Assembly: GCA_029582155.1 (NCBI GenBank)
Contig: CM055898.1
Coordinates: 27,926,745-27,990,744 of the forward strand
DNA length: 64,000 nucleotides
Direction: 5' to 3'
Source: Panopea generosa
Taxonomy: Eukaryota > Mollusca > Bivalvia > Adapedonta > Hiatellidae
The position numbers and the translations under genes were made by a program. Numbering within the stretch: position 1 is the stretch's first letter; each line of letters opens with the position of its first letter. The notes beneath the pieces are model-generated. The model did not search any database. It was not told where the DNA came from and worked only from the letters and a program-made list of their open reading frames with translations. This document shows, in pieces, positions 8,509 to 47,300 of this stretch.

Positions 8509-8706
8509 TATGATTCGTTGATGTCTGTTAAATGTCGGTATAATTACGACATGATTCGTTGATGATCGTTAAGTGTCTGTATAATTACGACATGATTCGT
8601 TGATGTTCGTTAAATGTCGGTATAATGATGACATTATTCGTTGATGTTCGTTAAGTGTCGGTATAATTACGACATGATTCGTTGATGTTCGTTAAGTGTC
8701 GGTATT
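8509..8706. repeat. 41-bp minisatellite, about 5 copies
   Basis: Five tandem units of 41 bp begin with atgattcgttgatg and end with taattacgac. They start 15 bp after the stop codon of the zinc-finger frame. Units differ at a few positions each, so the array is fairly young. Confidence 0.85.
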
Positions 8707-11152: not shown

Positions 11153-14100
11153 GTAACAAAGTTAGTATTATTAGATAATTACTTATGTCATGCAGCGTCT
11201 AAACAGTCGACGTTATGTACTGCAGCGTCTAAACCGTCGACGTTATGTTATGCAGCGTCTAAGCAGTCGACGTTGTGTACTGCAGCGCCTAAACAGTCGA
11301 CGTTATGTACTGCAGCGTATAAACAGTAGATGCTTTGTACTGCAGCGTCTAAACAGTTATGTACTGCAGCGTCTAAACCGTCGATGTTATGTTATGCAGC
11401 GTCTAAACAGTCGACGTTATGTACTGCAGCGTCTAAACAGTCGATGTTATATACTGCAGCGTCTAAACAGTTGACGTTATGTACAGCAGCGTCTAAACAG
11501 TCTACGTTATGTACTGCAGCGTCTAAACGGTGATGTTATGTAATGCATTGTCTTAACAGTTATGTACTGCAGCGTCTAAACAGTCGATGATATGTACTGC
11601 AGCGTCTAAACAGTCGACGTTTTGTAATGCAGCATCTAAACAGTCGACGTTAATAGTCTCAGTCTGGAATGGTTGTAGCATTTTTAAAGTTCTCCCAATT
11701 GTTATATGTAGATATAAACATAATTTTCATTATCATAGTTTTGGCACTGGCAGTTTAGACAATACGTGCATTAAATTGTTTTACTCTGTACCAGTGATAT
11801 TGGCAATGTGGTATAATTAATCTAATAGTCTCTTGCAGTTCTTATAGTGTGACATGGTATATGCGATAGTGTTATGTTAAACTGTAAACGTTATATGTTT
11901 ATACTACAATTAGACTTTAATATATGTATATACATACTTTTATATATGTACATACAATGAAAAATATCTGACCATTATTACTGTAGGACGGTGACGATGT
12001 TAGAAATACACTTAGATGTCATGTAATCTTTCATTTATAAAAATGGAAGTTCTATTATTGAATTATAAGAATGCACAACACTAATTAAAACATCCGGTGT
12101 CCTAGGAAAAATACTTTTTAATAAAAATTGTACGTTTTTCGAATTAATTTCATATTATTTCTTTTTTGCTTACAAGAAACTTACATAAATGCATTTTTAT
12201 GTTGACTTAAAGCGACGTATAGAAGTTTTCATTTCACCTTTCATCTCGGTGGCCGGTAGGTCAACAGCGCGATCTCAAGCTTACCGCGGAAATGTGCTGA
12301 GAGTGGTGTTAAACTCATTACGCCATCTTTATTGTATTAGATATGTAAATATATAAACTCCCTCTCAATGATCATTGATTCACAATAAAAAAAAATATCC
12401 CAGAAAGTAATTTTGTAAAACTTATCGTCGTGTTGCATTGAAAGTGTTCCTCAGATTTACAAGAATCCAAATGTGCCTTCAATAATCGGTCAACCTTTTG
12501 GTCGTCTGCATACTTAATATTCTCTGAAACTATATACTTATATATACAAGACTCAGTGCGTTTTATTTATTTCTAAATTTGATGACTGTTGTTATTTTTA
12601 GGCCGTAAAATTTGTAACGTTATGGAGGTGTTTGAGTTACTGTGGATTTCATTTCATTTTATCTGCAAAGGCACAAACAGTCAAGAATTTACACTTAATA
12701 ATATTTTTGTTATAATGAAAATATGAAACTTTAAACTTTCAAATTGTCAAAGTGTATCCTGTTCAACAATTATTCGTTCAGCTATTGCAAAACAAATGAT
12801 TTTTTTTAAATGATTCAACTTTAAACTCATACGTTTTTATAATTTTAAAGTTTTTTAATGATATTGTCGAAACTAGCGTGACATCCAAAGATTGATGCAT
12901 TTTATGAATATTAAATTTCAGGTAATAATACTTGGATATTATTATGGAGTTTTATATCTCCAAATGGTTGAACATTTATAAAACATAAATGTAAATACGA
13001 TTATTACGGATACACCTGGAACTGGTCTTTTAAAATGTGCACAACATATAAAATATGCATATTGGTATAAATAATTGTACATGGCAATTAAACCTGAATA
13101 TAACATATAATAAAAATGTTACTATTATTACAAATATGCTCATTTAGTATAAAAACGTTAGTTTTGCAACTGCATTTAATTTAGTGATGGCATACTTTTA
13201 GAGCTTTTTATTCTTCATGTACGCGGTAGAGTGATTTATTCTTTTGATTGTAATTAGAATGGGTATAAAAGAGTATTCTGTAAGGTTTTAAGCAATATTT
13301 ATCCATACACTATAAATTATCAAAATATTAAAAACAACGCTATATTTTTATAAATCTGCCGAAATTATATTGTTTTGAAAAATCCTAAACAGTTAAATTG
13401 AAGCTTATAATTAGCTTTGCCACGACAATTAGTATTATATGCATGCATCAGTGTATTTTTTTTCTCATTGCTTGTAAAATCAACATTTTCCGGCTAAATT
13501 TTAAGGATTGGTATGATGTTGGGGAGGTAATAACAAAACGCTGTACGGTAACATGTTATTTTTTCTGATATTGCATAAATATACATAAAATTTCATTGGG
13601 AAAATAATGAATACAACTATAGAAATCGTCTTAACATAGAGATTTAATAGCCTTAAGTAAAAGTAAAGTATATTGATGTGAACACAAGACCCTTTATTGC
13701 CTTTAGCTTTGTGTTATGCGTTTTGACTTGACCTACGTAGTGGTAGGCTCAAACGATTAACGGAGACATTTGCGTTCGGAATAGACAAATTATACTACTT
13801 TACGAATTCCCCTGTGTTTTGTGAGTATCAAGACATGTGTGTCTCAATGACAATGCTAAAAGCTTTTTTCTGTCAAAATGGAAAAAGGTGATGACGTTTC
13901 GTATGCAGGATTGTCTTATACAGGCATGCAATGGAGATATTCTAGTAAACACCTTTTTAATACAATCAATGGACGTGCATTTGACTCGTTGTTTCTAATA
14001 CTGAATTTGTTAAAACTAGTTCATTATTCATGGACTGCAATTCAAGTTCTTACAAAATGTATAGGTCCCGCTCAAAGTCTTCCTGTGTAGAACCATTACT

Positions 14101-17100: not shown

Positions 17101-20100
17101 CAAACATTGGCTAAGGAACAAGTCGGAAAACAACCGAGTCATAACGGAATATTAAAAATGTAAACACTAGTTAAAAGCTTAACCCCAACTTTTAAGAAAA
17201 AGATATTTCGATCGAAGTTATTATTTTTCTCTCTTTTTTAAAAACATTCACTATTGAGTCTATAGGAATGGCTTTAGCAACACTATAAACAACATGGCGT
17301 TGTATATAATGGCTTCAAACGCATTATGCGTGTAAGAAAAGTACAAATGAATTAAAGGTTGCTTTCAAAAGACATGCACGACATACACCGTCTAGGCGAA
17401 AGACGTTGACAGTTACAATTGTCGAAAATGTGAAACTTGTCACAAAATCAGAACAAAAATGATTACTTTTTAAAATTGAATTTAAAAGGTGGGGAAGGTC
17501 ATAGATTGTGACACATTAGATGCGTGAAAACACGTTTGCAACTACCATTGTTGGTCAATGATGTTAAATATGAATAGATTGTTAGTTTTTTTACTATGAT
17601 TCTTTTCAAATTTGCACCGGTTTCGTCATGTTATGTCGTCCGAACTTGAACATTTGGTCATCTATATTTTAACGATATCATATTTGATAATGGTTACGGT
17701 ATTGCCGTTCAATTTGGTATGTATTCATTTCATTTTTAGTCAAATGTGATTGTTTTTTTAGCATGTAGAAACTCTGTAATAAATATTGTGATAATTTCTT
17801 TTTCTGCGTAAACGCAAAGGAAATAATTCAACAGACTGATGTATTTGACTTTTCAATTTCCCTCTTTTTTATTCTATTGAGATTCGTAAACGACGCTATA
17901 CAAAGTAGTGGCACTTGACATTTCATTTTTGTTTGCGAAAATGCGAGCATGTTGTAGATAGCAGAATAAATTAAATTCATTGCTCATATATTTTAAAGAC
18001 ATTAATACTAGATTTGATAACATGCTTTTTTGCAATTTAAGAGAACAAAAAAAAATGGTTCTCTTTCAAAAACCACTCGAACAACTGTTATAGAAATGTG
18101 AAAGTGATTTAAATGATATAATAGAAATATGTTTACTGACACGGACTCCTCCGTTAACGATATAAATAAACCATAAAGGTGCATACAGCAATTAAAATAG
18201 AAACAGAATGTACACAAAATTAAAATTTGACCCATAAATAATATATATATACAATATAAATATAGAAAATTAACATTAATTAAAATTAACTTCTGCAATA
18301 TTTATATACAAATACTTTACTTGTTTAGAAGCTGTTTTATAGAAAAAATGTGCTTGTAAAGTTATGTAAATAAAACAAAACAATAAAAGAAATAGTAATT
18401 ATTTGGCAATACATGGACAACAAATACAATCTGCATGCCCTTAACTTTACCTTTCGTAGCATCCATGATCACTGATAAAGTGTTACGTGTAAATGACGTT
18501 GATTTCAGATGGCATTGATGGGCATTTACCTTAACCTCATTCAAATCAATATTCACATGTTTCTACTTTATGTATCAACATCAACTCGAGGGTTGAATGC
18601 GAAAAATATCTAAGGGCATATTAATAAAAAAGCACTTAGACCTTTTTCGCTTTCATCCCTCAAACTGCACTATTATTAACGAGTGAGATGATTTTTCTAT
18701 TCCATTAAGTTTAATATCAACTCTAAACTGCAGAAACCAAAGTTATGGGCGAGAGTGTTAGCGGTTTTATTCATCCGATTTGTCTCAAGTTTTCACAAAA
18801 TTGTTATAACATTAATAAGTGGTTATTAATCTTACATCTATGTCAATTGTAACAAGCTTTGTATAAAGGTCAGTTTCATAGTTTTAGCTCAGATACTAAA
18901 CATATTGTTTAAGCTTATGTATTTAACCTCGATTTGGAAACAAGTTATTACACAATAGACACATGTGGTCTTTCTGGGTCGAACCAGATAAAGTGTCTTG
19001 CCCAATGACACCGCACATGGCCAGGGTAAGAATTGAACCCACGACCTGTTCCACTATAAATAAATACTTATGTTTCCGATAAAATAAAAACAAGCATTAA
19101 CTATTATACACCAGAGGGAATTATAAATCTTCCTTTTTATTAACTTTCCAGCGTGTGAACAGCTTGCAATGAACACCATAGCATCATTTGGTCCTTTGAA
19201 TCAGGACTTAGCTGCCTTTGTAGGGTCTGCGTGTTCGAGTCTCCACGTTCCCCATCTAGAGACTAGGATAGACGCCAGCAGCATTCCACTTTCCAAATAT
19301 TCCATCAATATTCATCCTGATGCTGAACAGCTCTCCAAGGCTTGCCTTGATGTCATCAAACATTTCGGCTGGACCGAGATGCTCATTATATATGGTAATC
19401 AATTAGGTAAGCCAATTTAGTAGCTAACATTCATTGATTTGTTTGATTTATTGTATTTATTAACTTAGTTTACGTGTCTAAAACCAAATTGACACGATCT
19501 CAGATTTACCAGTTTAAGCACAAAAAATCCGTATTTGTGACGTGTAAGCGTTATTCCCTATCAATAACAATGGTCTCCTTTCGTTATTGTTTGTACTGTA
19601 TTTTGATATTTGACCAGTTTGTTCATAATGTAGCAAAATGACCAAGGGCCGACAACTCACAAGGGTAGAATACGAGCATACTCAAAATAAAATTTACAAT
19701 TTACAATTTTATTTTTACATGAATAAAATTACGATTATACAATTATACAATATATGCAAATTAAAGCTAATAACTTGTCAGCAAAAAAATACAGCTGGTT
19801 TAAAATGTCTTAAGATGGAATTAACACTTTCTTAATCACAAGTTTTTTTCTCCTACACGTTCCGTATATCTATATCGCGATCCAAACTGCTTACATCATA
19901 TGAATGTTATAAATGTTATTAATAAACACAAATATTGTATTTAAGATACTACTACCGCGTCCGGATTATCGTAGATTTAGCGTCAATTATTCCTCGTGGC
20001 GATGTCTATATTAACAGGGTTATCTTCCCCAGAACTCTGTACTGAGTTATCTGGCTTTATGTCGCCTCGTACCGACTATCTCCGACTGCACTCCGACGCC

Positions 20101-23300: not shown

Positions 23301-26300
23301 TGCAATAAAAAAAACATACATTTTGATCAAGAGAAGCTAAATACATTACTGAATATAGGCTAATGTAAACATTTAGATTCACTGATAGCAGAACTAATTG
23401 GAGTATGGTGTGACAATTACGATTGGAAAATCTTTACTACAAAGGAGTGAGAAAAGTGGGAAAAACACATTCAATGATAATACAGTAGACAATATGGAAT
23501 CCATGACATTTACCAAGTCTCAGTAAAAATTAACAATGGCATTTAAAATCAGAGAATATTTATCCTGAAGTCGTGCATTATCAGAGATCCAAATGCTCAG
23601 GTACCTTCTTCAACAAAGTTTGGAGGTTTATTATTATTTGATGACGTTTAGTAATTGATTGATTTGAAAAAACAGCCTGTGTATTTGAACCATTGAATTG
23701 TGCATCCCTGCTATCCCAACAACGATGCTACAGTCTTAAAAGTCCTTTAAAGTGCATGGTTAATGAAGTTGTCATGAAAATAATCATCTGTCTGATTCTG
23801 AACGATGGACACTTCCTGTCCGTTGTGGTGGAATGAATAAAATATGCTTATGTCGTCCATTGGTTAAAATGTTCTGGTATTTAGGGGATACTGAATGTAT
23901 CCATAAGGTTAAAATCTAATATGGTTTATGAAAAAGACTGACAAAAAGCAATGAGAGGACAACGCATTGCCATAAATGTAATACCTAGGGCATTCCTGAT
24001 AGAAAAAGACAGCCAGTACAAGCTGATGGGCCTTAGACAAATCCCAAACCGGTATTTAGTTTAAACTTATTTATTTTACTGCGACTGTGAAACAAGTTCT
24101 TACAACTTAGACAAATCATGCTTGACGTCTTCCTGGATAAAGTCATTACTAAGCATATGTACAAAAGGTGTCTTTCTCAAGGACATCACACACAGCCGTC
24201 AAATCAACAATCCTCTGAATTAAAAATTGTTCGAGCACCATACGATACATGCGCATGTATTCAAATCGAAATTGAAATTAAGCCGGTACCAGATAGGTGG
24301 TTCGTGCTATATGATTCGTTCCAGACATCTGTTTTCGAGCCAACGAAGTTGTACTGTATATAAAACAGCATTATAATGTCCCTTGTAATGAAACCCTTTC
24401 TCTCGTAAATGAGTTTGCAAATTTATAATTTAGAAAAATAAAGAAATAAATGGTAACGAATCAGAACCATAAATATTGATAATCATTATATATTTACCAT
24501 TTACTTGTATACCAAGTAATTATTTATCGTAATCGTTTCTGCATTTACTTCATCATAATGCAAAGATCTTCATCCTTTTTATTTTAAAGAGCCTGGCACG
24601 ATAAGCTCAGTCAGTTACGCGTTTGACTATCACTCCAGCGGTTTGAATCCCCGTCCGGCAACAGTCTCCGTAATGATTTCTATACGTCTCTCACCGTTGA
24701 TTGAAGTGGGAAGTTATCAGTTACTTGCGGAGATGGGGTGTGCTCAATTACTGGTTAGTGGTTAACCATCAGGATCCCAGGAAACAGTGGTTAGATGAAT
24801 TGATCGTCTGTTAGCCCTCGATGGCAAATAAATAACGCTAAATACGCAATCAATTTATTTTAAAAAAAGCCATTCCATTTTCCATAAATGATGACTGATT
24901 TTATTTGAATGTGTTCAATAAATATAATAAAGTGCATATTGATACCCATGTGCATTCATGATATAAGTTATTATAATATACGTATAAACGTGTCCCCATT
25001 GACAGATGCAGTTCAGTTTATGTATTGTTTGATTACCTGCATTACGTATTAAACCTTTTAGTTTAATGCATGTTCGCAATATGCTGACCGTAACTCTCAT
25101 TTAATGGGGATATTACTGGTTTTAGTAGAATCTCTTCTAAAGAAACATAATCTTAACGATAATAAATGTTGCTTAAGATGGCGGTAGCATTGTCTGGGGA
25201 TGCGTCATTTGTTTGTGTTAGATATTTGCCAATATTTTTTGTACCATTATGTTGCAGCTTTATTACAGGTGCAATCTTTATTTCGGACATGTGATGAACG
25301 GGGGAGTAATGAAACGGTTTCCATGATGGTTATAGTACGATAGGCTGATCTTTACCGTTTTTGTTGTAGGGTTCTTAAAGGTGAAATCATTACTTCGGGC
25401 AAGTAATGAAATGGTACCAATGATGGTTATAGTACGGCAGGCTGATCTTTAACATATTGTTGTAGGGTTCTTACAGGTGATATCATTACTTCGGCAAGTT
25501 ATAAAACGGTACCCATGATGGTTATAGTACGACAGGCTGATCTTCAACATATTGTTGTAGGGTTCTAAAAGGTGCAATCATTACTTTGGGCAAGTAATAA
25601 AACAGTACCCATGACGGTTATAGGACGACAGGCTGATCTTTACCGTTTTGTGTAATGTTCTTAAAGGTGCAATTCTTACTTCCGGCAAATTGAAACGGTA
25701 CCCATGATGGTTATAGTACGACAGGCTGATCTTTACCATATTGTTGTAGGGTTCTAAAAGATGCAATCAATACTTCGGGTATGTAATGAAACGGCACCCA
25801 TGATGGTTTTGGTACGACAGGCTGATCTTTACCATATTGTTGTAGGGTTCTAAAAGATGCAATCAATACTTCGGGTATGTAATGAAACGGTACCCATGAT
25901 GGTTTTAGTACGACAGGCTGATCTTAACCGTTTTGTGAAGTGCTCCTAAAGGTGCAATTCTTATTTCGGGCAAATTGAAACGGTACCAATGATGGTTATA
26001 GTACGACAGGCTAAAATTTACCATATTGTTGTAAGGTTCTTCAAGGTGCAATCATAATTTTCGGCAAGTAATGGAACGGTACAATTGATGATTATAGTAC
26101 GACAGGCTGATCTTTACCTTTTTGTGAAGTGGTCTTAAAGGTGCAATCTTACTTCGGGCAAATTGAAACGGCACCCATTATGGTTATAGTACGACAGGCT
26201 GATCTTTACCATACTGTTGTAGGGTTCTAAAAGGTGCAATCATTACTTCGGGCAAGTAATGAAACTGTACCAGTGATGGTTATAGTACGACAGGCTGATC

Positions 26301-29300
26301 TTTAACATACTGTTGTAGGGTTCTAAAAGGTGCAATCATTACTTTGTGCAAGTAAAGAAACGGTATCCATGATGGTTACAGTACGACAGGCTGATCTTTA
26401 CCGTTTTGTGTAATGTTCTTAAAGGTGCAATTCTTACTTCGGGCAAATTGAAACTGTACCCATGATGGTTATAGTACGACAGGCTGATCTTTATTGTTTT
26501 GTGTAGTGTTCTTAAAGGTGCAATTCTTACTTCGGGCAAATTGAAACTGTACCCATGATGGTTATAGTACGACAAGCTGATCTTCACCATATTGTTGTAG
26601 GGTTATTAAAGGTGCAAACATTACTTAGGGCAAGTAATGAAACGGTTCCCATGATGGTTATAGTACGACAAGCTGATATTTACCATATTGTTGTAGGGTT
26701 CTTAAAGGTGCAATTCTTACTTCGGGCAAATAATAAAACTGTACCCATGATGGTTATAGTACGATAGGCTGATTTTTACCATATTGTTGTAGGTTTCTTA
26801 AAGGTGCAATCATTACTTTCGGCAAGTAATGAAACGGTACCCATGATTGTTATAGAACGACAGACTGATATTTACCATATTGTTGTAAGGTTCTTAAAGG
26901 TGCAATCATTACTTTGGGCAAGTAATTTAGCGGTACCCATGATGGTTATAGTACGATAGGCTTATCTTTACCATATTGTTGTAGGGTTCTTAAAGGTGCA
27001 ATCATTACTTCGGGTAAGTAATGAAACGGCATCCATGATGGTTATAGTACGACAGGCTGATCTTTACCATATTGTTGTAGGGTTCTTAAAGGTGCAATCA
27101 TTATTTCGGGCAAGTAATGAAACGGCATCCAAGATGGTTATAGTACGACAGGCTGATCTTTACCATATTGTTGTAGGGTTCTTAAAGGTGTAAGCATTAC
27201 TTCGGGCAAGTAATGGAATGGAATATCTGACGTTTGGCTGATTTTCACAACTTGTAGGCTGTTGGTTAGATATTTACAAACATTTTTCTATACATTTCAT
27301 GTTGCAGGTTTATTAAAGGTGCAATCATTACTTCGGGCAAGTAATGAAACGGCATCCATGACGGTTATAGTGCGACAGGCTGATCTTCACAACATGCGGG
27401 CCGTGTTGAAGGAAGCCAAGAAAAAACGTTGGCACCACATTGTGGCCGAATTGAACTTAACTGAGACTGCTCTCCTTCTCAAAATGGTAAATCGTTTTGA
27501 TTAACATACTTATTTACAAATCAAATAGCTAGACATGTAGATAAAAAACTATAATTGAAAGTGTATCTTCTTTTCTGATATACTTATTTGTAACATGACA
27601 AAATGATCAAACAGCTCCATAACCAGCCCTCATAGCAGGCACATCTAACTCTGTATTTAAATCATTTGTCATCAATCTATGCCACTTCTAAAGTTAAATG
27701 CATTCATTTGAGTTATATAATATTTTAGTATGATAGTTGCAAGTGTATTATATATAGTTTATTATATGTGTATTTACGAGTGTGATCAATGTAACATCAA
27801 AATTATATATAGTTTATTTTGTTTATTTACGTGTGTGATTAATGCAATATCAAATCATATATAGTTTATTATATTTGTATGTTTGTGTTTAATAACGCAA
27901 TATCAAAATTATATATCGATTTTTATATGTTAATATCTGTGTGTGATTATTGCAATATCAAAACTATATATGTTTTAATATATGTGTGTGATTAATGCAA
28001 TATTAAAATTATATATATTTTATTATATGTGTATATATGTGTGTGATTAATGCAATATTAAAATTATATTTAGTTAATTATATGTGTATATATGTGTGTG
28101 ATTAATGCAATACCAAAATTATATATGTTTTAATATATGTGTATATATGCGTTTGATTAATGCAATATCAAAATTATGTATTGTTTATTATATGTGTATA
28201 TATGTGTGTGATTAATGCAATATTAAAATTATATATATTTCATTATATGTGTATATGTGTGTGTAATAAATGCAATATCAAAATTATATTTAGTTTATTA
28301 TATGTGTTTATATGTGTGTGATTACTGCAATATCAAAATTAACAGCCCATTCCAAAAAGAATAAAGTTAACTCCACTCATAAAAAAGAGCAAGATATAGG
28401 CTTTACTTGATGTGAACATTAACATTTTGTCTAATGAGCTGGTTGGACTTGGTAACTATATCAAACCAGTTTAACCACACACTTACACATATGATATATC
28501 TGTTGCTATCGTTGTCACGGACTCATAAAAATTGAGTATAATGTAGCATTTTTTTACAAAACGTGAGTCAGTTTGAACAGTATGTCTTAGTCAATATTTG
28601 ATTTAACTCATAGAGCCTAAATTGATTTTATATTCAATGAACGCATACCCGTTAATGGATGTTATTATTATAGTTTTAGATAGTGTTACTGACCTATCAC
28701 GACAGATTAGAATTGATATGGTTCCTGTATATATCTCTTTCTACTGATACTGCAACACTCTCTCATGAGGATTATGTGCGCACATAAAGTGCAAAATGTC
28801 AATTATACGGGCATTTGAATAACTGATTAGCACAGAATTTCAGTGAGATTTATTATAACTTTCCCTGTACACTGGACCGATTGCTTTAAATCCCATCGGA
28901 AGGATTTGCATGTTTTCACAGCGCCTTGCACTGTGGTTATGCGTTTGAAAACCCTGAAACACCAACAGGAATCGTGCAACGTGCTGACCACTTTACCGCC
29001 GCAACTGCTGTTTCCACTGACGCACTTCATTTTAACTACAAGAGATGCAGGAACAAAGAATAGGCATGTCTATGACTGCTGCATTTATCTGCTCAAATAT
29101 ACAGAATACAGCAAATAAGTATTCTTTATAGGGTTCTGGATTTTTTATAAATACTATCTCGTGTTGGTATAGACTGGTGTATTAATAATATATATTATAA
29201 TATAAGTAATAAGATTCATCTGTTTAACGGTCATGATGTATTTACTTACACATGCAAAACGCATTTTACATGAACCCACTTCTGGGTTCACTTACTTTGC

Positions 29301-32300
29301 ACGTGATTCCTGCAAATTCATGTCAGATTAGCATAAAGGACTTGTAAATAAAGTATACTAAATTGTTATTTGGTCCATTAGTAATGCAAGGAAAATTCAA
29401 GGTTGATATGACTTATTTTTTATATTTTCAGGCACTCCAGGAAGGTATGATTGACTCATATCATCATTTCATCATCAATAACATGGTATGTATTTATATA
29501 TTTTCGGTGCAATAAATCACTGCTAAACTATGATATTTAGAGATGATCATAACAATTATGCAATAAAATTCAACATTCCCTGGATTCGCAAAGCGGATAT
29601 CAAATTAACTCCATGTACCAATGAATATTACTATAAGCCAATTACATCGACTCCATGCATTAATCACTTTTATCATATTATATTATACAATCAATTATGT
29701 AGAATATTTCGATAAAGTCATTCTACCACATTTACAAACGCACAAAGCTTTAGTAATTATATAAGACATAGCAAACAGTTTCTCCGGTCTATAAATTTCG
29801 TGTTTTGGTTACTTTTGCATTCAGATTTATAACTAGTCGTTTGCGATTAGCTTTATCTTATTTCAATTTCAAATTCAATACATTAAGGCTGGTACATGAG
29901 TGCATTTGACCTAAATTTGTGTAAAGAAAGAAATTCATCTCTTTCATTTTTCTCATATAAATCGTTATTTGATAATACGCTTATGCTGGTTTGGAAGTGC
30001 ACATCGATATATATTTCATGTGAAAAACAAATTCACATAAATATCAGCCAAGATGATGTCAGTTTAGCTTTGATACGGTTGTTATTTAATCTTACTCTAA
30101 CGATTTTTTGATTTTTTATTGATGTTCCCATTTCTTTTATCAATATTAATACATTTTTTCCGAGGAATCTTTCGAATAGCTAGTTGACCTGACAAAGGTT
30201 GTGAATCAGTAGTGTTTGCTTGTCTGTAGAACGAACCCTGCTCTCCCGATTTGGTCCGTTAACTAGCAATTATAATGGTTACGAACACGCTGATTTGTCA
30301 GTTGCTTCAGGGAAAATATGAATGACGTCATAGTTTAGTAAGCGTTCAATTGCTATGAATTGTGGGACAGGCATAGAATTCCCTGCTTTTTCATTTGGTG
30401 GTTGATAGACCTGATTCCGGAGATATCAGGTTCTGTGATATACTTAGTGTTTGTACATTGATATGCATGTTATGAGGCAACCCTTGGTGACACCGCAGCC
30501 CTTAGTGTATAAAAATCAATTTTGTTACACTTAGGGTTACGGATGCGACCCTTAGTGTTACATTAAGCGTATGTTTGGTACATGTATTTGCATTTGATTA
30601 TAAAACGGGTTCTCTTAGTGTAACAATTTGTTTTCTACTAGAAATGTGTTTATCCCTGCTATAAAACGTTACCCATGTTCGTCCGTCTACACACTTCGTC
30701 TACACAAAACGGTTTTGTTACATTTAGGGTTTTTGTTACACTAAGAATTGCCACAATGCTATTGTAAAACTCGTATTGCACAAGTTATGCATGTTCATTC
30801 ATACTTTTGCGTTGCTAAATCATAAGCTGCTTATGAAACTGGTTGTAAACTGTTAATAAAAGTCAATCTCAAGTACATCATTTCTGGCCAACAAACAAAT
30901 ACAAGGTTAGCAATGGTATTAAACACATGCATGCCTGTCACATGCAAAATAAATACATTATCAGAGGGGTTTATTCTTATGTTCGGCACACTTTATTACA
31001 TGTATATTGTTACTAAATCCATACTGTAATCAAATCAAAACTATTCAAAATAATTATTTTATTTCAATAATAGACATCACACTTGATCATAGTGTAAACT
31101 TAGTTGAAATCCAATATAAATTCACGCTTAAATATCGCACATATGCTCCCGATATACAGTATAACTTCGAACGCGAATGACTCGACCACCACATAGAGTT
31201 CGAACCACTTACCTGGCCTCTGGCCGAATTCCTGTTTCGATGTATATACTTGTTCATGTATGGTGTGATGTTGAACAATACTTGGCTCGAACAACCCTTA
31301 ATTCGAACTATTTTGTCCAGTCTCGTCGCGTTCGAGCCATCGAAGTTCTACTGTAAATGAAATACAATGAAAAATATTTCGTCTAAAAATTAGAATAACA
31401 AGGATTAAATTTATTTTTCATGAATTCATTTTTGTGTTAATATTGACGAATTACGGACACATTTGAATTCATTCGATGTGTGGATGATCGTTGGAACTTC
31501 ACAGTGTTAACTGCTGGAAAATATAATGTAATCTTAAAATAGAAAATATTTTTATAATTCACTTTCAATACAACTATCATTTTGTTCCATTTGTTTACAT
31601 ATACTGAACGGAACAGCTAACCTGATGAAACATTTTATGTACCTGCCATTTATGTAATTTCTAAATAAATATATCAAATCAATTTCCTTGACAGTTATAT
31701 TTGAATAAAAAAGATATTTAGGCTATGTAAAATTAATGCATATTGTCTGTTTGTGTCGTATAGACATTTTGATAGCGATGCTCGATAGTTTGACGAAGAT
31801 ATTGGAAAAACAAAAGGGGCGGGATGGCTGTTCCGTTCAATATTGTTATTATATACTGAAATGGATCCCTTAGAAGCACGGACACACAAAAGTATTGCAA
31901 TACTCGGTTTAAATGAATCTGTTTATGGCGAGTGATGAAACATGCAGTTATCCTTACAGAGTTGATATTCTGTTTTCCCAGGACATCGAACTATTAGATC
32001 TAGAAGATTATCGTCACAACTTTGTAAATCTAACTGGCTTTAGATTAGTTAACGTAGAAGACGAATACGTGAGGTCAATTCTTTATGACATCGACTTATA
32101 TAAGGAAAACACTCAACTACATATATTAAAGGGTACCACGTTACCGGTAAGTAAGAACTTTTCAGAGCCTATTCTCTTTAAAACTCCATATTGGATATAT
32201 AATATCTTCTTATTATAAAACGTTTTTTGTAATTAAATGCTTTTAAATGTTAACGTATATCCATTATTATAATGCTTGTTCTTAAAAAGAATAACAAAAT

Positions 32301-35300
32301 ATGATCTTAATGCAATAGCTATGAAAATGTATTTTAGTAGATATACAACAATATACGAGTGCATGAGGCAAATGAAATAAATTATTAAAGCAGGTATGTA
32401 ACAATATACAAGTACGAGTATATGAGGGAAATTTAATAATGTATTATAGCAGTTATATAACAATATACGAGTATATCATGAAATCCAATAATGTATTATA
32501 GCAGTTATGTAACAATATATGAGTATATGAAGAAATGCAGTAATGTATTGCAGCAGGAATGTAACAATATACGAGTATATGATGAAATGCAATAATGTAT
32601 TGCAGCAGGTATGTAACAATATACGAGTATATAATGAAATGCTATAATGTATTGCAACAGGTCTGTAACAATATACTAGAATATGATGAAATGAAATAAT
32701 GTATTATAGCAGTTATGTAATAATATACGAGTTTATGATGAAATGCAATAATGTATTGCAACAGATATGTTACAATATACGAGAATTTGATGAAATACAT
32801 TTATGTATTGCAGCAGGTATGTAACAATATACGAGTATATGAGGAAAAAGCAATAATGTTTTGTAGCAGGTATGTAACAATATTTGATTATATGATGAAA
32901 TGCAATAATGTATTACAGCAGGTTTGTAACAATATACGAGTGTATGATGAAATGCAATAATATATTGCAGCAGATATGTAACAATATACGAGTATATGAT
33001 GAAATGCAATAATAAGTTATAGCAGTTATGTAACAATATACGAGTATATGATGAAATGCAATAATATATTGCAGCAGGTATGTAACACAATACGAGCGTA
33101 TAAGGGCAAGTCAATAATCTATTAAAGCAGGTATTTAACAATATACGAGTATATGATGGAAATGCAATAATGTATTATAGCAGTTATGTAACAATATATG
33201 AGTATATGAAGAAATGCAAAAATGTATTGCAACAGAATGTAACAATATACGAGTATATGATGAAATGCAATAATGTATTGCAACAGATATGTAACAATAT
33301 ACGAGTAGTTGATGAAATGCAATTATGTATTGCAGCAGGTATGTAACAATATACAGGTATATGATGAAAATGCAATAATGCATTGTAGTAGGTATGTAAC
33401 AATATACGAGTATATGTGGGCAATTCAATAATGTATTAAAGCTGGTATGTAACAATATACGAGTATATGGTGGTAATGCAATTATGTATTGTAGCAAGTA
33501 TGTAACAATATACGAGTATATGAGGGAAAAGCAATAATGTATTATAGCAGATAAGTAACAATATTTGAGTATATGATGAAATACAATTATGTATTGCAGC
33601 AGGTTTGTAAAAATAAACGAGTGTATGATGAAATGCAATAATGTATTGCAGCAGGTATGTAACAATATACGAGTATATGATGAAATGCAATAATAAATTT
33701 AAGGAGTTATGTAACAATATACGAGTATAATTATGATGAAATACAATAATATATTGCAGCAGGTATGTAACAATATACGATTATATAAAGGAAAGTCAAT
33801 AATGTATTGCATCAGGTATGTAACAGTATACGAATATATGATGGAAATGCAATAATGTATTATAGCAGTTATATAACAATATATGAGTATATGATGAAAT
33901 GCAATAATGTATTGCAGCAGGTATGTAGCAATGCACGAATATATGAGAAAAATTCAATAATGTATTAAATCAAGTATGTAACAATATACTAGTAAATGAT
34001 GAAGATGCAAGAATGTATTGTAGCAGGTATAATCATCTCATTAATACTTTTCTTGCCAAATACATTTTATACCATTATAATGTTACCTGCCATTTACCCT
34101 TCAATCATAAAGGTCACCCCTTTGTCATGACAACTGCCAAATAAACTTTTTCATGACCTTCATCGCATTTTTAAATCTGAGTAATGAAATTTAGTATTGA
34201 AGGTAATCCCTTTATCAAATAAACTTTTATCATTTGCCAAATAAACTGTATTATAACGGAGGAGACTCCGTGGCCGAGAGGTCTAAGGCGCCATCTCAAG
34301 ATCACTTACCTCTCACAGCCAAGGTCGTAGTGTCGAGTCCTGCTCGCTCCAAAAACTTTATGTGAGGAAGTTTGCCAGTTACTTGCGGAAGGGCGTAGGT
34401 TCTACTCAGTCTGAGGTTTACCTTCACCAGTAAAACTGGATATGCCATATATAACCTGAACTGTGTTGAAAATCATAACGGTTATCCCATTATTATACCT
34501 GACTAATACACTTTGATTATAAAGGTAATTCCTTTATCATGCATGTTACCTGCTAAATAAACAATGACCACAAACGTCCTCACGTATATACTTTGTAATG
34601 AGTCATATTTTTGAAATGTTACTTGCCACATAAACTTTAGCTACAAACGTTATCACTTATAAAATTTGTCAGAAGAATAATATTTTTGTAATGTTACCTG
34701 CCCAATAAACGTTTGTCACAAAATTTATCTCTTTACTGTGTCTCCTGTCAAATTATTATCTTACTTGCCTAATGAACTTTAGTTATAAAGACACTACCTT
34801 TATGATGGTACTTGCATAAACTTAAATCACAAAAAGCATCCTTTTGTCACGTTTACATTAGTGTTGTTGTGGTGACCATTGAGGTAACATGTTCCTTTCT
34901 TAAGGTATAATATTAGTTATTTATTATTAATAATCGAAACACATACCAGTATATGTCTACGAGCATTGCACATATAAAATCACTTTTATCATAAAAATTG
35001 TGTTTGATGCATTAATGAAACCACGGCAATTATTTTCCAGTATCAGTGTGCCCTCATATTTGACGCCGTGTACCTTTTCACCAAGGCGCTGATGGATTTG
35101 AATCGCAGTAATGTGTTTATTACTCCAAATAACACGTGTGAAGACGCCGTCCCTTGGGCAGGAGGAAAGTTATTGTATGATTATATAAATGGGGTATGTA
35201 ACAATTTTAAAGAAAAAGTCTAATTTGAATTGCAATAAAAATGTGAAATATTAAAATAAAAAAAAAACTACTTTCATTGAGCGGTTTTCTATTAAAAAAT

Positions 35301-38300
35301 AACTCTTTTGAAACTGTTTTAGTGTTTAACCTCATTTGACAACCGATGTAATTACTTCAATTGTCACTCTTATTTGTTTAAACACCCTACAAAATAACTT
35401 TTAAGTTCGTTCTTAATCATTAAGAGGTTTGTCATCACAGCGCATGCGTGATGAGCACTGCACAGACTCTGCTCTTGATATTCAAGTCTGAACGAGTCAT
35501 GTACAATCTACGCGCGAGCTATGCTTAGAAACGGCCTCAGCAAACATCAACTTTAAAAAGTCACTCACCTCAGCTTTCATCGTAGCTCCCGCCCGGAGTC
35601 TATCAAACGACGTCAAACTGTCAGTCAAATGACGTTTAACACTAAGCCAGTTAGTGCTCATTTATAAACAATTTAACAGTTAAGAAACCCTGGTCGCTCC
35701 CTGTTCCTTTTGAGTTTCTAAATTGCTATTTTTTTTATTTAAATGAACACCAACTATTACTTAAAGTGTTGTATTTGCTTAAAGCAGCTATAATATCAAA
35801 TATTAACCGGCTTCCAACGATAACCAGCAGTCTGAAAAATCCACATCGAACAAGTGGTCTCGTGTTAGAGCATTGGATAAAATATCGGAGTACCGCGGGT
35901 TCCATCACCTATTACAGTCATGTGTTTAAAAGCAACACACCTTGTCTGTCCGCACTTGCTTAGTACTGGTTCTATAACACGACAAAACTTAAAACGCAAT
36001 TTGTCTGAGTTGCGATAACTCGTTTTGCAATCGATGTAAAATAAATAAGTTTAAACTTCAAGAACCATTGATTTTAAGACTCACGAGAAGCATTCCACTA
36101 TTATCTTGACAAAGTACTACCAGAAATAGCTGAATCCTATAGTTTCACTTTATTCTTTATTACAAATTTGTGAAATTCGTTTATCTCAATTTCTAAAAGT
36201 GAAGCCTGAAGATGTATCGATCTTTATCATAAATATAGGCGCAAATAGTGCAAATATCTGTATTTGAGGCAATGGCGAATGTATATGTCATTTCAATTCG
36301 GATCTTTGCCCCCAGTGTGTCGATTAATGATTAGTTCTGCTACCATACAATCGATCGAACATGTTCTGTAGCAATCCAATAACTTGTAATAATAACAAAA
36401 ACATACATTCCTTTTCAGAAAAGAGTATATCATATGAAGGTACTCTTATATGCGTACATTGCTTCAAGCATTTGTATGTGTGAATAATCCGAGAAAAAAA
36501 TAATGTGCCTCATTAAAATATTTTCAAAACATCAAAGCAGTTGAAAGTTCTGATAGCCCGGATTTAATTAATATTCATACGCCGTCCTGATTTGATTGAG
36601 ATTGTTGTAGTTTTTGGTTTATTTTATGCAACATATTTTTTGAAAATGGCATAATATAATGTTCGCAATATACTTTTATTGTTTAATTTGTTTCTGATTG
36701 CTTATATTAATAACATGAAAAAAAAGAAATACGAGGAGAGGGGGTGGGGGGAGTATTTCCTGTCGCGTATGATCATTTTTGCGGTGATCAATACTGCAAA
36801 ACTTGATAACGACCGCATAGGCAGGGCTATGCCTTTGGCATAAAACACGGCTAAAATAATAGTTTACTTTGAAAGAAGCTACGTCTAGTATCAATGTTTA
36901 CATATATATGGTTTATTGTATTTCTCACTTTTTACTTTCACTAGTTCATTAGTTTGTGTTCACCAAGGATCACATATTGTGTTCAGCCAGGTCTAGGACG
37001 TTCAATAGTCAATTTCTTTCAAACAAAAACTTGTCTTTGAAATAACTGACCTTTTAAATTCATATTTATATTTTTATTTTTTTTATTTTTCAATCCAAAG
37101 TTTAGAGTAATCGCCCGTATGTTTGTGATCGTGTAAATATATGATCTCACATCTGTGCTCATCTATTATACGAGTTTGATTAATTGATAATAGATAAGCG
37201 CGAATGTAAGATTCTATGTATTAAATAAACTCTGAAAAAATGTATATTTTTAAATCGATCTAAAAAGTGGATATTACACAGCGCTGCTCTCGTGTATGAT
37301 AGCAGCATCTTTAACGCAATTAAGGTGTTTGGTCAAGGCGGAAAGTAGCTTTATGACTGTTTCCGTAATAGAGCCGAATTATGTGGAAATCACTGAGATG
37401 AGTGATAACGTCATTTAATGATGTCCGCTTTTTAAATATAAAATAAATAGTAAAAGAATATAATTAGGTTCCATGCACATTAAATGCGATAACTACGTAT
37501 AAATATCGCATATTAGTGATAAATATGTATAAATATACATATATTTTATGTTACAAGCTACATTTGTTGTGATAAATATGTATAAATATACATATATTTT
37601 ACATTACATGCTACATTTGTTGTGATAAACATGTATAAATATACATATATTTTACATTACATGCTACATTTGTCGTGATAAATATGTATAAACATACCTA
37701 TATTTTACATTACATGCTACATTTGATGTGATAAATATGTATAAATATACATATATTTTACATTACATGCTACATTTGATGTGATAAATATGTATAAATA
37801 TATACATATATTTTACGTAACATGCTACATTTGATATAAATATACATTTGTTAATTTATTTTATGTAACATTTGATGTAATAAATACGTATAAATATGTA
37901 TAAATATACATATATTTTAGGTTCAAATAGATGGTTTAACTGGACGATTAAAGTTAAATTATGGACGACGGTTGGATTTCAAACTTGACATTATGGAACT
38001 TAGAGAGGAAGGACTCCAGCGGGTAAGGTATAAGGCTTCACTCTAGATGTGGTTGGACTTTGTTTGGTCTTTAGAAGGAATACACACATCTTGCAAATTT
38101 CTGGTCTTTCTAGGTTTGGATGTAGGATTTGATTTTAAGTAACATTTGTATTAGTTTAGAGCTGAAAGAATTGCCACATCCTGCAGTAAGATGTAAACTT
38201 TCACCCTAGGTATGGTAGGTCGTTGTAATTGCATTGCAAGAACAGCTACATTTTGCAAATATATATTGGATTGGTCCTCCTGTATGCTTTGACATCTTGC

Positions 38301-41300: not shown

Positions 41301-44300
41301 TAGCATTCGATCAAATGTATTATGTCAGCCATTTAATAATGAAAACGTGCGCAAACCTTAAGTAAAAAATAGACCAGAACAGAACACAATTTCAATCACT
41401 TATATAAAACAATAGCTCATCCAACATATATTTATTACATACAAATGATATTGTACATGATATGTTTAAATAGTTTAAAAGTTTAATAAATATAAAATAG
41501 ATAAACAAAAGTTCAGCTTTCAATTTGATATATAGAAAATTCAATCAACGGTCATTTTAAGTTAACCCAGACAAAATTTCTAAACTGATTTTTTATTTAT
41601 ATATATATTGCTGCAAAACAAATTTCATCAAAAGTTCATCGTAACTGAACAATAGGAAATTTATTTTTATACCACATAATTAAAAAAAGTTTTGACACTA
41701 AGTGTATATAATACCTCTATACTAAACCAGCAACACATTTTGAAAACCAAATGTATTAGAGAATGAATGTCGTGAACAATCTTTGATAACCATACCACTT
41801 GTCTGGTAAGACACTTTATTTAAACCACATATCAGACCTTTGTGAATTTGATATATTTGTTGTTGTTTTTTTCAGACTGGAATCTGGAAGGTAGGGTCGG
41901 GTGCAAACATAACTGTTCAACGATTCATGGGTTCGGGTGTGTTTGGAAACAAAACACTGATAGTGTCCACAAATTTGGTACGTATCTGACCTACAAAACA
42001 TTTTTATTCACAATATGCATTAAACAGGTACGTAAGAGTAACGTTCATATAAGTAAACTGTTTTATAGATTTGTTAAGATAGGTCACGTGAGTGTTTGTG
42101 TTTATTTTGTCATATATTTGTAACGGTGAAAAACTGTAACAGTTTAGGTCAAACCAATATATCTACCCATCTATAAAATGTGTCAATATTATTTATAGGA
42201 GCTACATAATCAAATGAAATGCTTGTCATACTTTAATATAACAAGTATCATTTTAAAGGGATGAAAAAGCAAATGCAGCAAAGATTCGGATTTTATAAAC
42301 GATGTTGAGATTGATACAGATTGTATAAACATATAGGAGATAGAAAATAATTTATAAACGATACGGAGATAGGTACTTATTTTATAAACAAATGGGAGAT
42401 AGATACAGATTTTATAAACGATTGACAGATAGACACATATTTTTTAAACGATTGGGAGATAGATACATATTTTATAAACGAATGAAAGATAAATACAGAT
42501 TTTATAAACGATTGGGAGATAAATTCAGATTTAATAAACGATTGACAGAAAGACACAGATTTTAAAAACGATTGGGAGATAAATACATATTTTATAAACG
42601 AATGAGAGAAATATGATACAGATTTTATAAACGATCGGGAGGTAGATACAGATTTTATAACAATTGACAGACACTGATTTTAAAAGCGATAGGAAATAGA
42701 TATATATTTTATAAACGAATGAGAGATAGATACAGATTTTATAAACAATTTGGAGATAGATACAAATTTTATAAACGATTGGGAGATAGATACATATTTT
42801 GTTAACGATGTGGAGATACAGAAAGATTTTATAAACGTTTAAGAGAAATATGATACAGATTTTCATAAATGATATAGATACAGCTTTATCAACGGAATAA
42901 AAGAGATACAGACAATAACACTCCAACGTCTTATGTAATTCCTCGCAATAAGGTTTCTCCATATTTGATTTGACATCCTTTGGGTAGTAAAATCACCATC
43001 TGAAGATGGAATATTGTCAAAGAAAGAAACATTGTCATGCTTTATATTAATTACTGCATCGACCATTTTCGTAAGCATATCTCTATATCATCAGTACATG
43101 TCATATTTCATTTTGTTAATATACAAATCGAGTCTTGTGGTCGTGACTCCAAAAGTCTATTTAAGATCACCAAACGTCTACTCGGTTGCAATAAAGACAG
43201 TTCATTCTCTCCATCCAGTTCTTCTCCAAAGGATCTCGCCAAAACTTTTAGTAACTTTTTCACAGATAACATCGGAACAATGAGACACGATATCAGCCAA
43301 AGTACGCAATCAAAACCCGTTGTGTGTATGACGAATGAATCTGAATGAACCATTGAGCATCAACATTTTGATATGCTACTGTTACTGAACATGAAGTGAA
43401 ATCTATCATATTTAAGGCGCCAAATGAATCAAGTGATCTTGACCCAATCCCTACATGGTTATTAAAGTTATGCCTAGATGAACCTTTGCCACCTATCACA
43501 AATATCACAAACACATCTCTAGATTCAGCGTACGTTCCGAAAGAATTTAAATCTGCAAAAATAAGACCTGTCCTGAAAAAACCTGGTCTTGACCCAAATA
43601 TACTTAAAAACTATCGACCAGTGTCAAACTCCATTTATATCTAAAGGTCTTAAGAAAGTTGTTGATTCACGTCTTGAACGACACACGACTGAGAAAAAAC
43701 TCCATGAGATTCATCAGTTAGCATACAGGAAATTTCATTCCACTGAATCAGCACTTCTGAAAGTACAAATGACATTCTTCAATCGCTTGACCGGAACTGT
43801 GTGACTGCACTTGTACTGTAAGACCTGTCAGCTGCGTTCGATACAATTGACCACTGTACACTTTTACATCGTTTGGAACACGTATTTGGAATCTCAGACA
43901 AGTCACTTGCATCGATCTCATCATATGTAAGTGATCGGTTTCAGACTGTAAGTGTTGAAGATGAATCATCGAAGCCTGTGCTAATGAAATATAGTGTACC
44001 TCAGGGATCGGTATTGGGACCTTAATATTTCTTCATGTACCCTAAACCAATTGGTGATATTTGCAGAAGTCACGGACTACTTCATCACTTCTATGCAAAC
44101 GATTCTCAAATCTATATCTCTTTCAAATCAATTTATGCTATCAATGGTAGTGAAGCATTACATCGAATCGAGTGCTGCCCGGCAGATATTGTTTCATGTA
44201 TGAGCGATAGCATGTTTAAATTTAACAAAGGTAAAACTGAAGTTATGTTGTTCACATCTAAACACAACGCCAAATTCGTTGATAGTGTCTCGGTGAGGGA

Positions 44301-47300
44301 TGTTGAATCACTGATACAATCATCTGACTGTGTGAGAAATCTAGGTGCATTGTTTACCCCAAGCATGGATACGGAGCAGCATGCAATTTTGGTGTATAGG
44401 TCTGCATATGCCCAACTTCGAAACATTGTTCGTATTAAACAATTTCTCACAATCTATATTTAAACATGAACAGTATTATTTTATCTGTGTTAATAGGTAA
44501 CAAAATGTCGAGCCGATTTTACAGTATGCATTACTCTTACTTGCCACTTTTTAATACTAATGCCTGTATTTTTTTATTCAGCTTGTCTTTTTAGATTGTT
44601 ATGTTTTTTATTGAATATTTTGTATGTATGCTATTTGTTAATGTAAAGCATTTTAAACGCATTTATTAATGATAAGAATGCTATATAAATGTGGTATATA
44701 ATAATAATAATATCCGTCATGTAAGTGTCATGTTCAAACACCATAGAACAAATGCAAATGTAGACTTATGTAAACAGCCAAATACAATATTGTGCATGTG
44801 TAAAAACGTGATGCTTTCTGTCGTTTCCTTCCCATACAAAACTTAGGACTGTTCGACATGTGTAAGAAAGTTCTTTATGAATGCTTCATTTTTGCATAAT
44901 TGTTTAATATACTAATACATTTTATTTCCACTTTTTATTAGGAACCACCATACGCTATGCTAAAGGATGAAATCAAAGGACATCCGTTGAAAGGAAACGA
45001 CCGTTATCAAGGATTTTGTATAGACTTGTTAAGTGAACTTGCACGAATAGTTGGTTTCGAATACACGATAGCTCCAGTACCGGATAAAAGGTATGGGGAG
45101 CTTAACAAGGACGGTCATTGGGACGGAGTTGTCAGACAGTTGATCGATAGAGTACGTATAACATTGTTTGATATGATTTATTTTTGTGTCATGTAATATA
45201 GTTTATTCCGTAAAACCTGTGCATATATAAATATAGTTATGTATATATTTGAAACTGTTATACTTAGCCATGTGACAACATTTTATAATGTTTTTTTCAT
45301 ATGGAAATATACTTTATATGTATGTATTGTATGATGATGTATTCATGTGAAAATCAATGAAAAATATGTTCTGTGTTACCATTTACGTTTGAATCGCATT
45401 CAAACTATTTTCATCATCGACATATGCTTTGTTCACGATTTGAGTGCAAAAATAAACATAACACTAGAAAACTGCAACGTTTTAGTATCATATGCCGGCT
45501 GTAATGACTCATTAAGACGGTATAAAAGCCAAATACGCAAAGATAATAGATATGTGCTTGTTTATTTACACTTATAGTGTTTACAATCTAAAAAAATCAG
45601 ACTAAATATTATTAAATTAATTCACATAAATTCTGTTAGCAAATATAAATCTCATCGTTTAAAGAAATATCTTTTTTTTAAATTTTAAGCACACCATACT
45701 ACATCAAATAATATACAAAATGTAGGTCTATTATTTAGCAATATTTTCTTCTATTCTACTGAACATTTTGTGTTGACGTCAGCGAGGGTCTTTAAATTTT
45801 TTACTCGGTATATTTATTCGATAAAGTTTTTTTTATATAATTTGCCACAAATGATTTCAAGACATATTTCATGTTAACGAGTTTCGTGCATTTATTTCGT
45901 AAATCTATGCTTCAAAGATTTCCCATAAACTGGAATTTGTCTGAACGTTGGTTTTATGTTCTTTCGTTTTACCAGTCATTTCTTAAATGATGTTTTGTGG
46001 GCTTGCAATATATTACGAACTTTTATAGGTTTATTAATAACGATTCCCTGAAATCATTTGTCAACGTTTCAAGGCGACATTACATTTCATAAAGAGTAAT
46101 CATTTGAAAGTTAGAACAATTCCGAAATCAAACACCAGCAGCAAGCCTCGAAACAGAACATGATTCGAAAATCGCCAACCCCAACTTTGGAATAAGTATT
46201 GGTCGTTTTTTGCAGAAGATTATTTGTCGTTTTTGTGCACAATTTCAGAAGCATCCACGAATACCACAGGTTCTTATACACAACCAAAAGTTTAAATCTG
46301 TCCAATTTTGTGTGACAAACAACGGCTAAAATATTTTAAAAAAAGGAAAATGTATTAACAAAATATGCTATTCGATCTGCAAAGAGAATTTTAAAACCTG
46401 TTGGTGACTTCAATGATGTTTTCAAACTAATTCTTATTCTGTATATAAAGCCAAGTTCGTTGGATTTTTTGGATTTATCATGTCAACTTTTTTGAGTAGT
46501 TTAAGTAGTTTAAGATGTATCCCCGCCTGCTGATAAACAATTAAACCGGTTTTTACTTATACGTATCATGGGTGGTATAATATTTGTTTTACATTACTGA
46601 AGTTTGGCAGCAGCATAAAAAGAGCATAAAGCTTTCATACTGAAGGAGACACAAGTGTTATTTGACAAAACTGATGTTGATGAACAATATAAGTTACATG
46701 CAATTAAAGATGATATGCTTCAGGTGTGAAAATAATCATAACACATAAAAATTGAAACATCTGATTAGGCTAGTAAATATAATTGTTTTGCGTGTTACGA
46801 GAAGAGGAGTGTTCAGTAAATAGCGCAATTGGTTTGTTCCTAGAATGCTATAATCTGTTTTGATCCTTTTTTGTGTGATTTTCTTCAATTTACTCCGTTT
46901 AACTGAAACACACATATGTGTTCGTATTCTTAAACAGATATAGCCTTAAAACATGGGTAAATATAGATCTTAGAGCATTTCGCGATTTATATATTTGTCC
47001 AGGCGAGTGTTTTGTAGTCTTCGGAAGAGAAAATAATCACAGGGCACCAGTCTGGAAAATATGGGATGTGTGGGAGAACGGTGACATTCTCTAACTGCAA
47101 AACGTCAGTCACAACACGGGTTTTGTAGGCTGACGCGTTGTCATGTAAAAGATTAATAAAATTTAAACCTATTATAGGGCAACGCTGTTCGTAGTAGTTA
47201 TTCTATTGTTTCAACATGACGTTTTTTATAAAACAAAAAAAAAACACGTCCTGTAGCAATTCCTCCATTTTATTTTTTATTCTTTTTTTCAATAAGGCGA

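Follow-up and report, generated by a model that had tools for sequence, protein, structure and literature searches.

In a kainate-type ionotropic glutamate receptor gene of the geoduck clam Panopea generosa, intron 2 carries near its end a 96-bp minisatellite whose units each repeat the intron-exon border that the array adjoins. The array lies just upstream of exon 3 (27308) in a 64,000-nucleotide stretch of scaffold C5 (C5:27926745-27990744), which is termed here the window; positions refer to this stretch unless C5 is named, and the features of the gene and of its array are on the forward strand. Judged by its sequence, it is a mirage-type structure, that is, a tandem repeat across an exon-intron border as previously described in amphioxus, here found in a mollusc. 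We take the array to be a "mirage" minisatellite that grew from a single border and is most likely neutral debris removed together with intron 2, and give this reading a probability of about 0.8. Among the three options that an earlier sequence-only reading had raised (debris, a decoy array, a source of variant domains), neutral debris is the best supported.

According to Tandem Repeats Finder, the minisatellite extends over 25305-27215 with a period of 96, 20.1 copies, 85% matches and a score of 2665, the highest among the 39 rows for the window. A unit-by-unit parse gave a founder copy, then 20 internal units and then the true exon 3, in agreement with the earlier description of about 20 tandem units of ~96 bp with the intact exon (27308-27486) as the final copy. 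Each internal unit is composed of the first ~80 nt of exon 3 and a tail resembling CTGAT...TTGTTGTAG; the tail usually ends in TTGTTGTAG, and its commonest full form is CTGATCTTTACCATATTGTTGTAG. Compared over 60-64 positions, the exon-derived portion of the 20 units shows 76.6-93.8% identity with the beginning of exon 3, and the kinship of the units with the exon is confirmed. The proposed composition of the unit, i.e., the end of intron 2 with its AG plus the first ~80 nt of exon 3, is right in its anatomy, but only ~8 nt per unit (TGTTGYAG, matching the intron end TGTTGCAG at 27300-27307) are certain intron sequence, and the AG has been lost in 4 of the 20 units. The CTGATCTT that precedes the intron-derived bases in the tail is coding sequence of exon 3, and ~8 further nt lie between it and the intron-derived end. 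By alignment, exon 3 is also the source of the branch-point-like CTGAT and of some of the pyrimidine stretch ahead of the AG.

The two ends of the array have structures of their own. The founder copy (25213-25304) starts with 45 nt that resemble the end of intron 2 (25213-25257, with AG at 25256-25257) and continues with the beginning of exon 3, including ~15 extra nt; positions 25213-25301 align to 27262-27352, which comprise the true intron end and exon start. The last unit (27177-27264) continues into exon 3 as far as nt ~100, where it meets the true intron end at GTTAGATATTT, a structure present both in the window and in the second genomic copy described below; it shows a breakpoint of the founder duplication. 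With this truncated unit set aside, the units closest to the exon are the most exon-like. Numbering the window units W and those of the second copy D, identity to exon 3 is 93.8% for W19, 92.2% for W20, 95.3% for D26 and 93.8% for D27, versus 76.6-89.1% in the remaining internal units of both copies, a pattern suggestive of local exchange or of late growth near the exon.

A dispersed satellite was considered and rejected. Among the best candidates scored in the assembly (1,474,161,289 bases in 39 contigs), a DNA search with 27000-27500 gave 21 matches and a protein search with exon 3 gave 32, all confined to two loci on C5. No similar array was recognised by eye in other receptor genes when matches to PF00060 (40) and PF01094 (112 among 115 scored candidates) were scanned for clusters of short matches to one profile segment, a negative of little weight, given that exon 3 lacks any Pfam match and the array described here was itself missed.

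The identity of the gene rests on its joined exons, which match kainate receptor chains of the PDB; the best row is 7ysv ("Glutamate receptor", E 7e-177), and chains of kainate 1, 2 and 3 come next. The Pfam domains matched by the exons are ANF_receptor, Lig_chan-Glu_bd and Lig_chan. Exon 2 (19152-19406, donor GT at 19407) is identified by ANF_receptor and by the alignment to kainate receptors. Exon 3 by itself matches no Pfam profile at E 0.01 and is identified by the alignment of the joined exons, by its splice sites and by its frame. The true 3' splice site of intron 2 (27262-27307) has a pyrimidine-rich tail and its AG at 27306-27307. The intact exon 3 comprises the GT of a split glycine codon and 59 further codons, with its donor GT at 27487. 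At the junction of exon 2 and exon 3 (...TTA G|GT TTA...), the glycine is formed from G|GT, and the peptide encoded across the join, GNQLGLLKVQ (within ...YGNQLGLLKVQ...), fits the kainate receptor alignment.

A second copy of the entire region is present ~1.08 Mb upstream on the same scaffold. In this second copy the array has 27 internal units versus 20 in the window, while founder, end unit and unit order are shared. By eye, the extra units are units 12-17 and 20. Unit lengths in the second copy are 93-97 bp, and many units deviate from 96 bp. Samples taken along C5 matched at 26.204/27.204, 26.404/27.536, 26.70/27.785 and 27.00/28.085 Mb. Two guessed pairings (26.40 with 27.475-27.495 Mb and 27.20 with 28.275-28.295 Mb) yielded nothing extensive, and the partners of these samples were then located at 27.536 and 26.204 Mb. 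The 27.204-Mb sample is itself repeated sequence, with further copies at up to 94% identity. More broadly, C5 from ~26.2 to 28.1 Mb is arranged in head-to-tail blocks of at least 0.8 Mb, whose long colinear pieces are ~93-99% identical, and no run of N occurs in the fetched loci.

The two copies are probably unmerged haplotypes of one region. This is the likelier explanation because the published assembly was made with Falcon at a heterozygosity of 1.37% and a contig N50 of 1.57 Mb, and neither "purge" nor "haplotig" appears in the main text (PMC10729735); a recent tandem duplication of ~1 Mb is less likely. Over eight exons (that at 31982 counted to 32145), 8 of 2010 positions are not the same in the two copies; the protein is identical in seven of the exons, and two residues differ in the exon at 35041. 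Exon 3 itself is free of differences (0/179; p 0.006 at the rate of the array).

The units, in turn, appear to evolve like intron. Among 22 pairs (founder, 20 units and true exon; units 11-14 paired by eye), 58 of 2089 sites differ between the copies (2.8%), the 20 internal pairs alone accounting for 54 of 1882. The remaining part of intron 2 differs to an equal extent (161/5715, 2.8%), and five intron stretches together differ at 351 of 17360 sites (2.0%, range 1.0-5.4%). Coding constraint on the units was examined and rejected: paired units differ at 9/434, 10/454 and 13/457 sites for exon codon positions 1, 2 and 3, with no excess at the third position (Fisher p 0.45, third versus rest), and when units are compared with one another, variation is lowest at the third position. 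Constraint on the AG was rejected as well. Its G is retained in 39 of the 47 internal units of both copies (0.83), below the mean of 0.915 for the 92 columns, and, taken together, the splice-site columns are conserved about as well as the exon part (0.919 versus 0.910). On these comparisons the AG is not specially conserved.

In terms of splice signals, the array is nevertheless rich. The AG at the homologous position is present in 16/20 units of the window and 23/27 of the second copy (lost in 4 of each), which bears out the statement that some 20 imperfect acceptors precede the true one. Of 21 unit-type AGs in the window, a set that was defined by a loose pattern and includes three positions (25222, 27195 and 27258) that are not unit borders, 16 have a branch-point-like CTRAY 19-21 nt ahead; in the other five, CTRAY is absent within 45 nt (three cases) or lies at 16 or 38 nt (two cases). 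The only GTAAGT donor-like site of the array is at 27014-27019, in W19, and several other units have GCAAGT at this place. Counted from 25200 through exon 3, GCAAGT occurs at 12 places and GTAAGT at one in the window, versus 16 and two in the second copy; the final GCAAGT of each copy sits in exon 3 itself.

Joining exon 2 to the AG of a unit would keep the frame at that junction. Read-through from there to the end of exon 3, however, meets a stop from all AGs, borders and founders included (102/102 in the window, 140/140 in the second copy), and a one-unit mini-exon, from AG to GCAAGT (or to the GTAAGT at 27014), is 29 nt long and out of frame. Decoy use would therefore lower the yield of the receptor rather than diversify it, and protein variants from the array seem unlikely.

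The array could have arisen in three steps. In the first, a segment that starts at GTTAGATATTT in intron 2 and reaches nt ~100 of exon 3 would have been duplicated, perhaps through the short match GTGTTR common to intron and exon; the ends of this segment are observed, while the order of events is inferred. An older, longer duplication of ~146 bp, followed by growth of a shorter unit, seems indicated because the founder keeps 45 intron-like nt and the last unit reaches exon nt ~100. In the second step, TGTTGCAGG at 27300 would have paired with TGTTGAAGG at 27404, a similar motif in exon 3 lying 104 bp away, with the loss of 8 nt and the amplification of 96-bp units. The third step, the gain or loss of internal units, is presumably what is seen in the 20 versus 27 units of the two copies. 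During splicing, the true AG would be chosen because it lies closest to the donor of exon 3, in keeping with exon definition, and because a longer pyrimidine-rich tract precedes it. The array, which lies in intron 2, is most likely removed with it.

Several observations weigh against such passive removal. On a crude acceptor matrix not trained on P. generosa, the true exon 3 acceptor scores 8.9, and 8 of the 102 AGs from 25200 up to that acceptor score at least as high, the best reaching 11.6; in the second copy, 9 of 140 upstream AGs score at or above the true site. AGs scoring at least 8 number 12/103 in the 2.1-kb array (true site included), compared with 2/250 in 5.8 kb of intron 2 and 3/157 in the 4.4 kb after exon 3, a stretch that contains the real exon at 29432. 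Such a density of high-scoring acceptors would make some decoy use unsurprising. Moreover, the A of the AG is invariant across the 47 internal units, like 21 other columns among the 92, and the divergence of the array is slightly above that of the pooled introns (p 0.03), though not above that of the rest of intron 2. The acceptor scores, together with the CTRAY spacing and the stops met on read-through, speak for a decoy or poison array, in which exon 2 is joined to a unit AG in some transcripts, the stops lead to decay and the number of units tunes the receptor dose, an arrangement also proposed for splice-site repeats in humans. The human ABCA7 variable number tandem repeat (VNTR), the length of which tracks lower expression and more exon 19 skipping (PMC5954066), and that of human CBS, in which more repeats accompany less activity (review, PMC5188458), lend it further plausibility. 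Against it stand the loss of the AG in 8 of the 47 internal units, which shows no sign of constraint, a unit divergence close to the intron rate, and the amphioxus mirages reported to leave splicing undisturbed (PMC3087553, PMC3902484). We thus consider it unlikely that units tune the receptor dose in this way, and give the same low chance to its fuller form, that 20-27 near-complete 3' splice sites, made mostly from the gene's own coding sequence, compete with the true acceptor and shed transcripts to decay according to unit number.

The suggestion that the units supply variant N-terminal domains by inserting 32-residue blocks into the receptor fares worst. It draws on the consensus unit of 96 bp (32 codons), on an exon 3 frame that stays open through a few units, with ORFs of 77 and 83 aa, and on the in-frame junction of exon 2 with a unit AG. 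Many units, however, are not 96 bp long, none of the 102 and 140 AGs is open to the end of exon 3, and the 29-nt mini-exon loses the frame; the claim is contradicted as far as read-through is concerned and is, overall, extremely improbable. A collapsed or invented repeat is very unlikely too, even though tandem arrays are error-prone and the scaffold appears to contain unmerged haplotypes. The finding of a second copy with 27 units in the same order makes an assembly artefact unlikely and the length of the array variable: the two separately placed copies have founder, end unit and unit order in common, yet their 20 paired internal units are distinct at 54/1882 sites, and the subread N50 of 26.5 kb is ~10 times the length of the array (PMC10729735). 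The possibility of an artefact, which the sequence-only reading had named as fatal to its own view, accordingly recedes. There is, finally, a very slight chance that the array serves as a nursery from which a new intron or mini-exon could emerge, in line with the model proposed for amphioxus globins (PMC3087553), as the units repeat an AG and, 29 nt on, a GC or GT donor (12 GCAAGT and one GTAAGT in the window, 16 and two in the second copy). The GCAAGT, however, derives from exon 3 codons (Arg-Ala-Ser-Asn) and hence recurs passively, and a single use shifts the frame.

Downstream of exon 3, a candidate 54-nt exon (29432-29485) is in frame between exon 3 and the next receptor exon and fills a gap in the alignment; that next exon (31982-32146) is identified by the kainate receptor alignment and has the donor ACCG|GTAAG. 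On the opposite strand, ~18-38 kb beyond the downstream end of the window, is another gene resembling ionotropic glutamate receptors (C5:28008747-28029011, minus), with a counterpart at C5:26927279-26948070. Other repeats of the window vary as well. A 52-bp minisatellite with 32 copies (32326-34030) follows the exon at 31982-32146, and the second copy is ~1.8 kb longer between its flanks. The window has ~1.7 kb of extra sequence at 42487-44451 (42486/44452 in the window versus 57922/58202 in the joined second copy). The ORFs at 43372-44460 resemble a non-LTR retrotransposon reverse transcriptase, although their piece at 43372-43641 has no Pfam match, so the haplotypes may differ here by an insertion; part of this length difference falls in the minisatellite at 42282-42873. 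Further minisatellites with units of 30-55 bp are found at 8510-8705, 11183-11652, 27747-28341, 37516-37919, 42282-42873, 47911-48474 and 55614-55965, and none of them overlaps the nine exons identified in the window.

The earlier reading set a 20-unit satellite across the intron-exon border of a receptor gene apart from known partial exon duplications. The partial-exon anatomy on which this was based is correct, but the structure is not without precedent, as tandem repeats across exon-intron borders are described as mirages in the amphioxus genes Adh3, globins BflGb6 and BflGb9, TnC and PGBD5 (PMC3087553, PMC3902484). In the open-licence literature, we found no use of the name "mirage" outside lancelets, nor did we find a molluscan array of this type reported; the geoduck genome paper (PMC10729735) contains neither "glutamate receptor" nor "minisatellite". 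That paper reports RNA-seq and Iso-Seq of eight tissues from one P. generosa. The array thus extends mirage-type structures to a mollusc, in a larger form, and offers a natural experiment on acceptor choice, with 20 to 27 look-alikes, several scoring like the true site, in two lengths that may be the alleles of one animal. If the decoy reading were true, heterozygous clams would differ in kainate receptor dose.

The human VNTRs differ from the clam array in position and unit. That of ABCA7, a minisatellite that repeats a splice site and varies in length among people, tracking splicing and expression, carries the 5' splice site in an intronic unit, with about 12 to 427 units (PMC5954066), whereas the clam unit carries the 3' splice site; as splicing and expression can change with ABCA7 length, a length-dependent decoy effect is possible in the clam. 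The 31-bp VNTR of CBS also lies at an exon-intron border (exon 13/intron 13), and its unit number is reported to lower enzyme activity, but it is placed at the exon end and intron start, has a shorter unit and is called non-coding by the review (PMC5188458).

The amphioxus mirages come much closer. Like them, the clam array spans an intron-exon border of a protein-coding gene, and the splice AG is kept in many but not all units (16/20 and 23/27), as AG/GT signals are in the amphioxus repeats (PMC3087553). Like BflGb6, the unit of which contains the 3' end of an intron and the 5' part of the next exon, it combines these same two parts. The Adh and TnC mirages are reported to yield no aberrant mRNAs (PMC3902484), regular splicing of BflGb6 is suggested by RT-PCR (PMC3087553), and somatic instability has been reported for the Adh3 mirage. 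Amphioxus mirages vary between haplotypes, with 6 and 3 units in two haplotypes of BflGb6 (PMC3087553); the two genomic copies in the clam, which are likely but not certainly alleles, have 20 and 27. The BflGb6 units are 150-160 bp in length, in contrast to the more numerous 96-bp units of the clam. The clam array further differs from its amphioxus counterparts in its setting, a receptor gene of a bivalve mollusc, and in its unit, which holds little intron and takes most of the stretch ahead of the AG from the exon itself.

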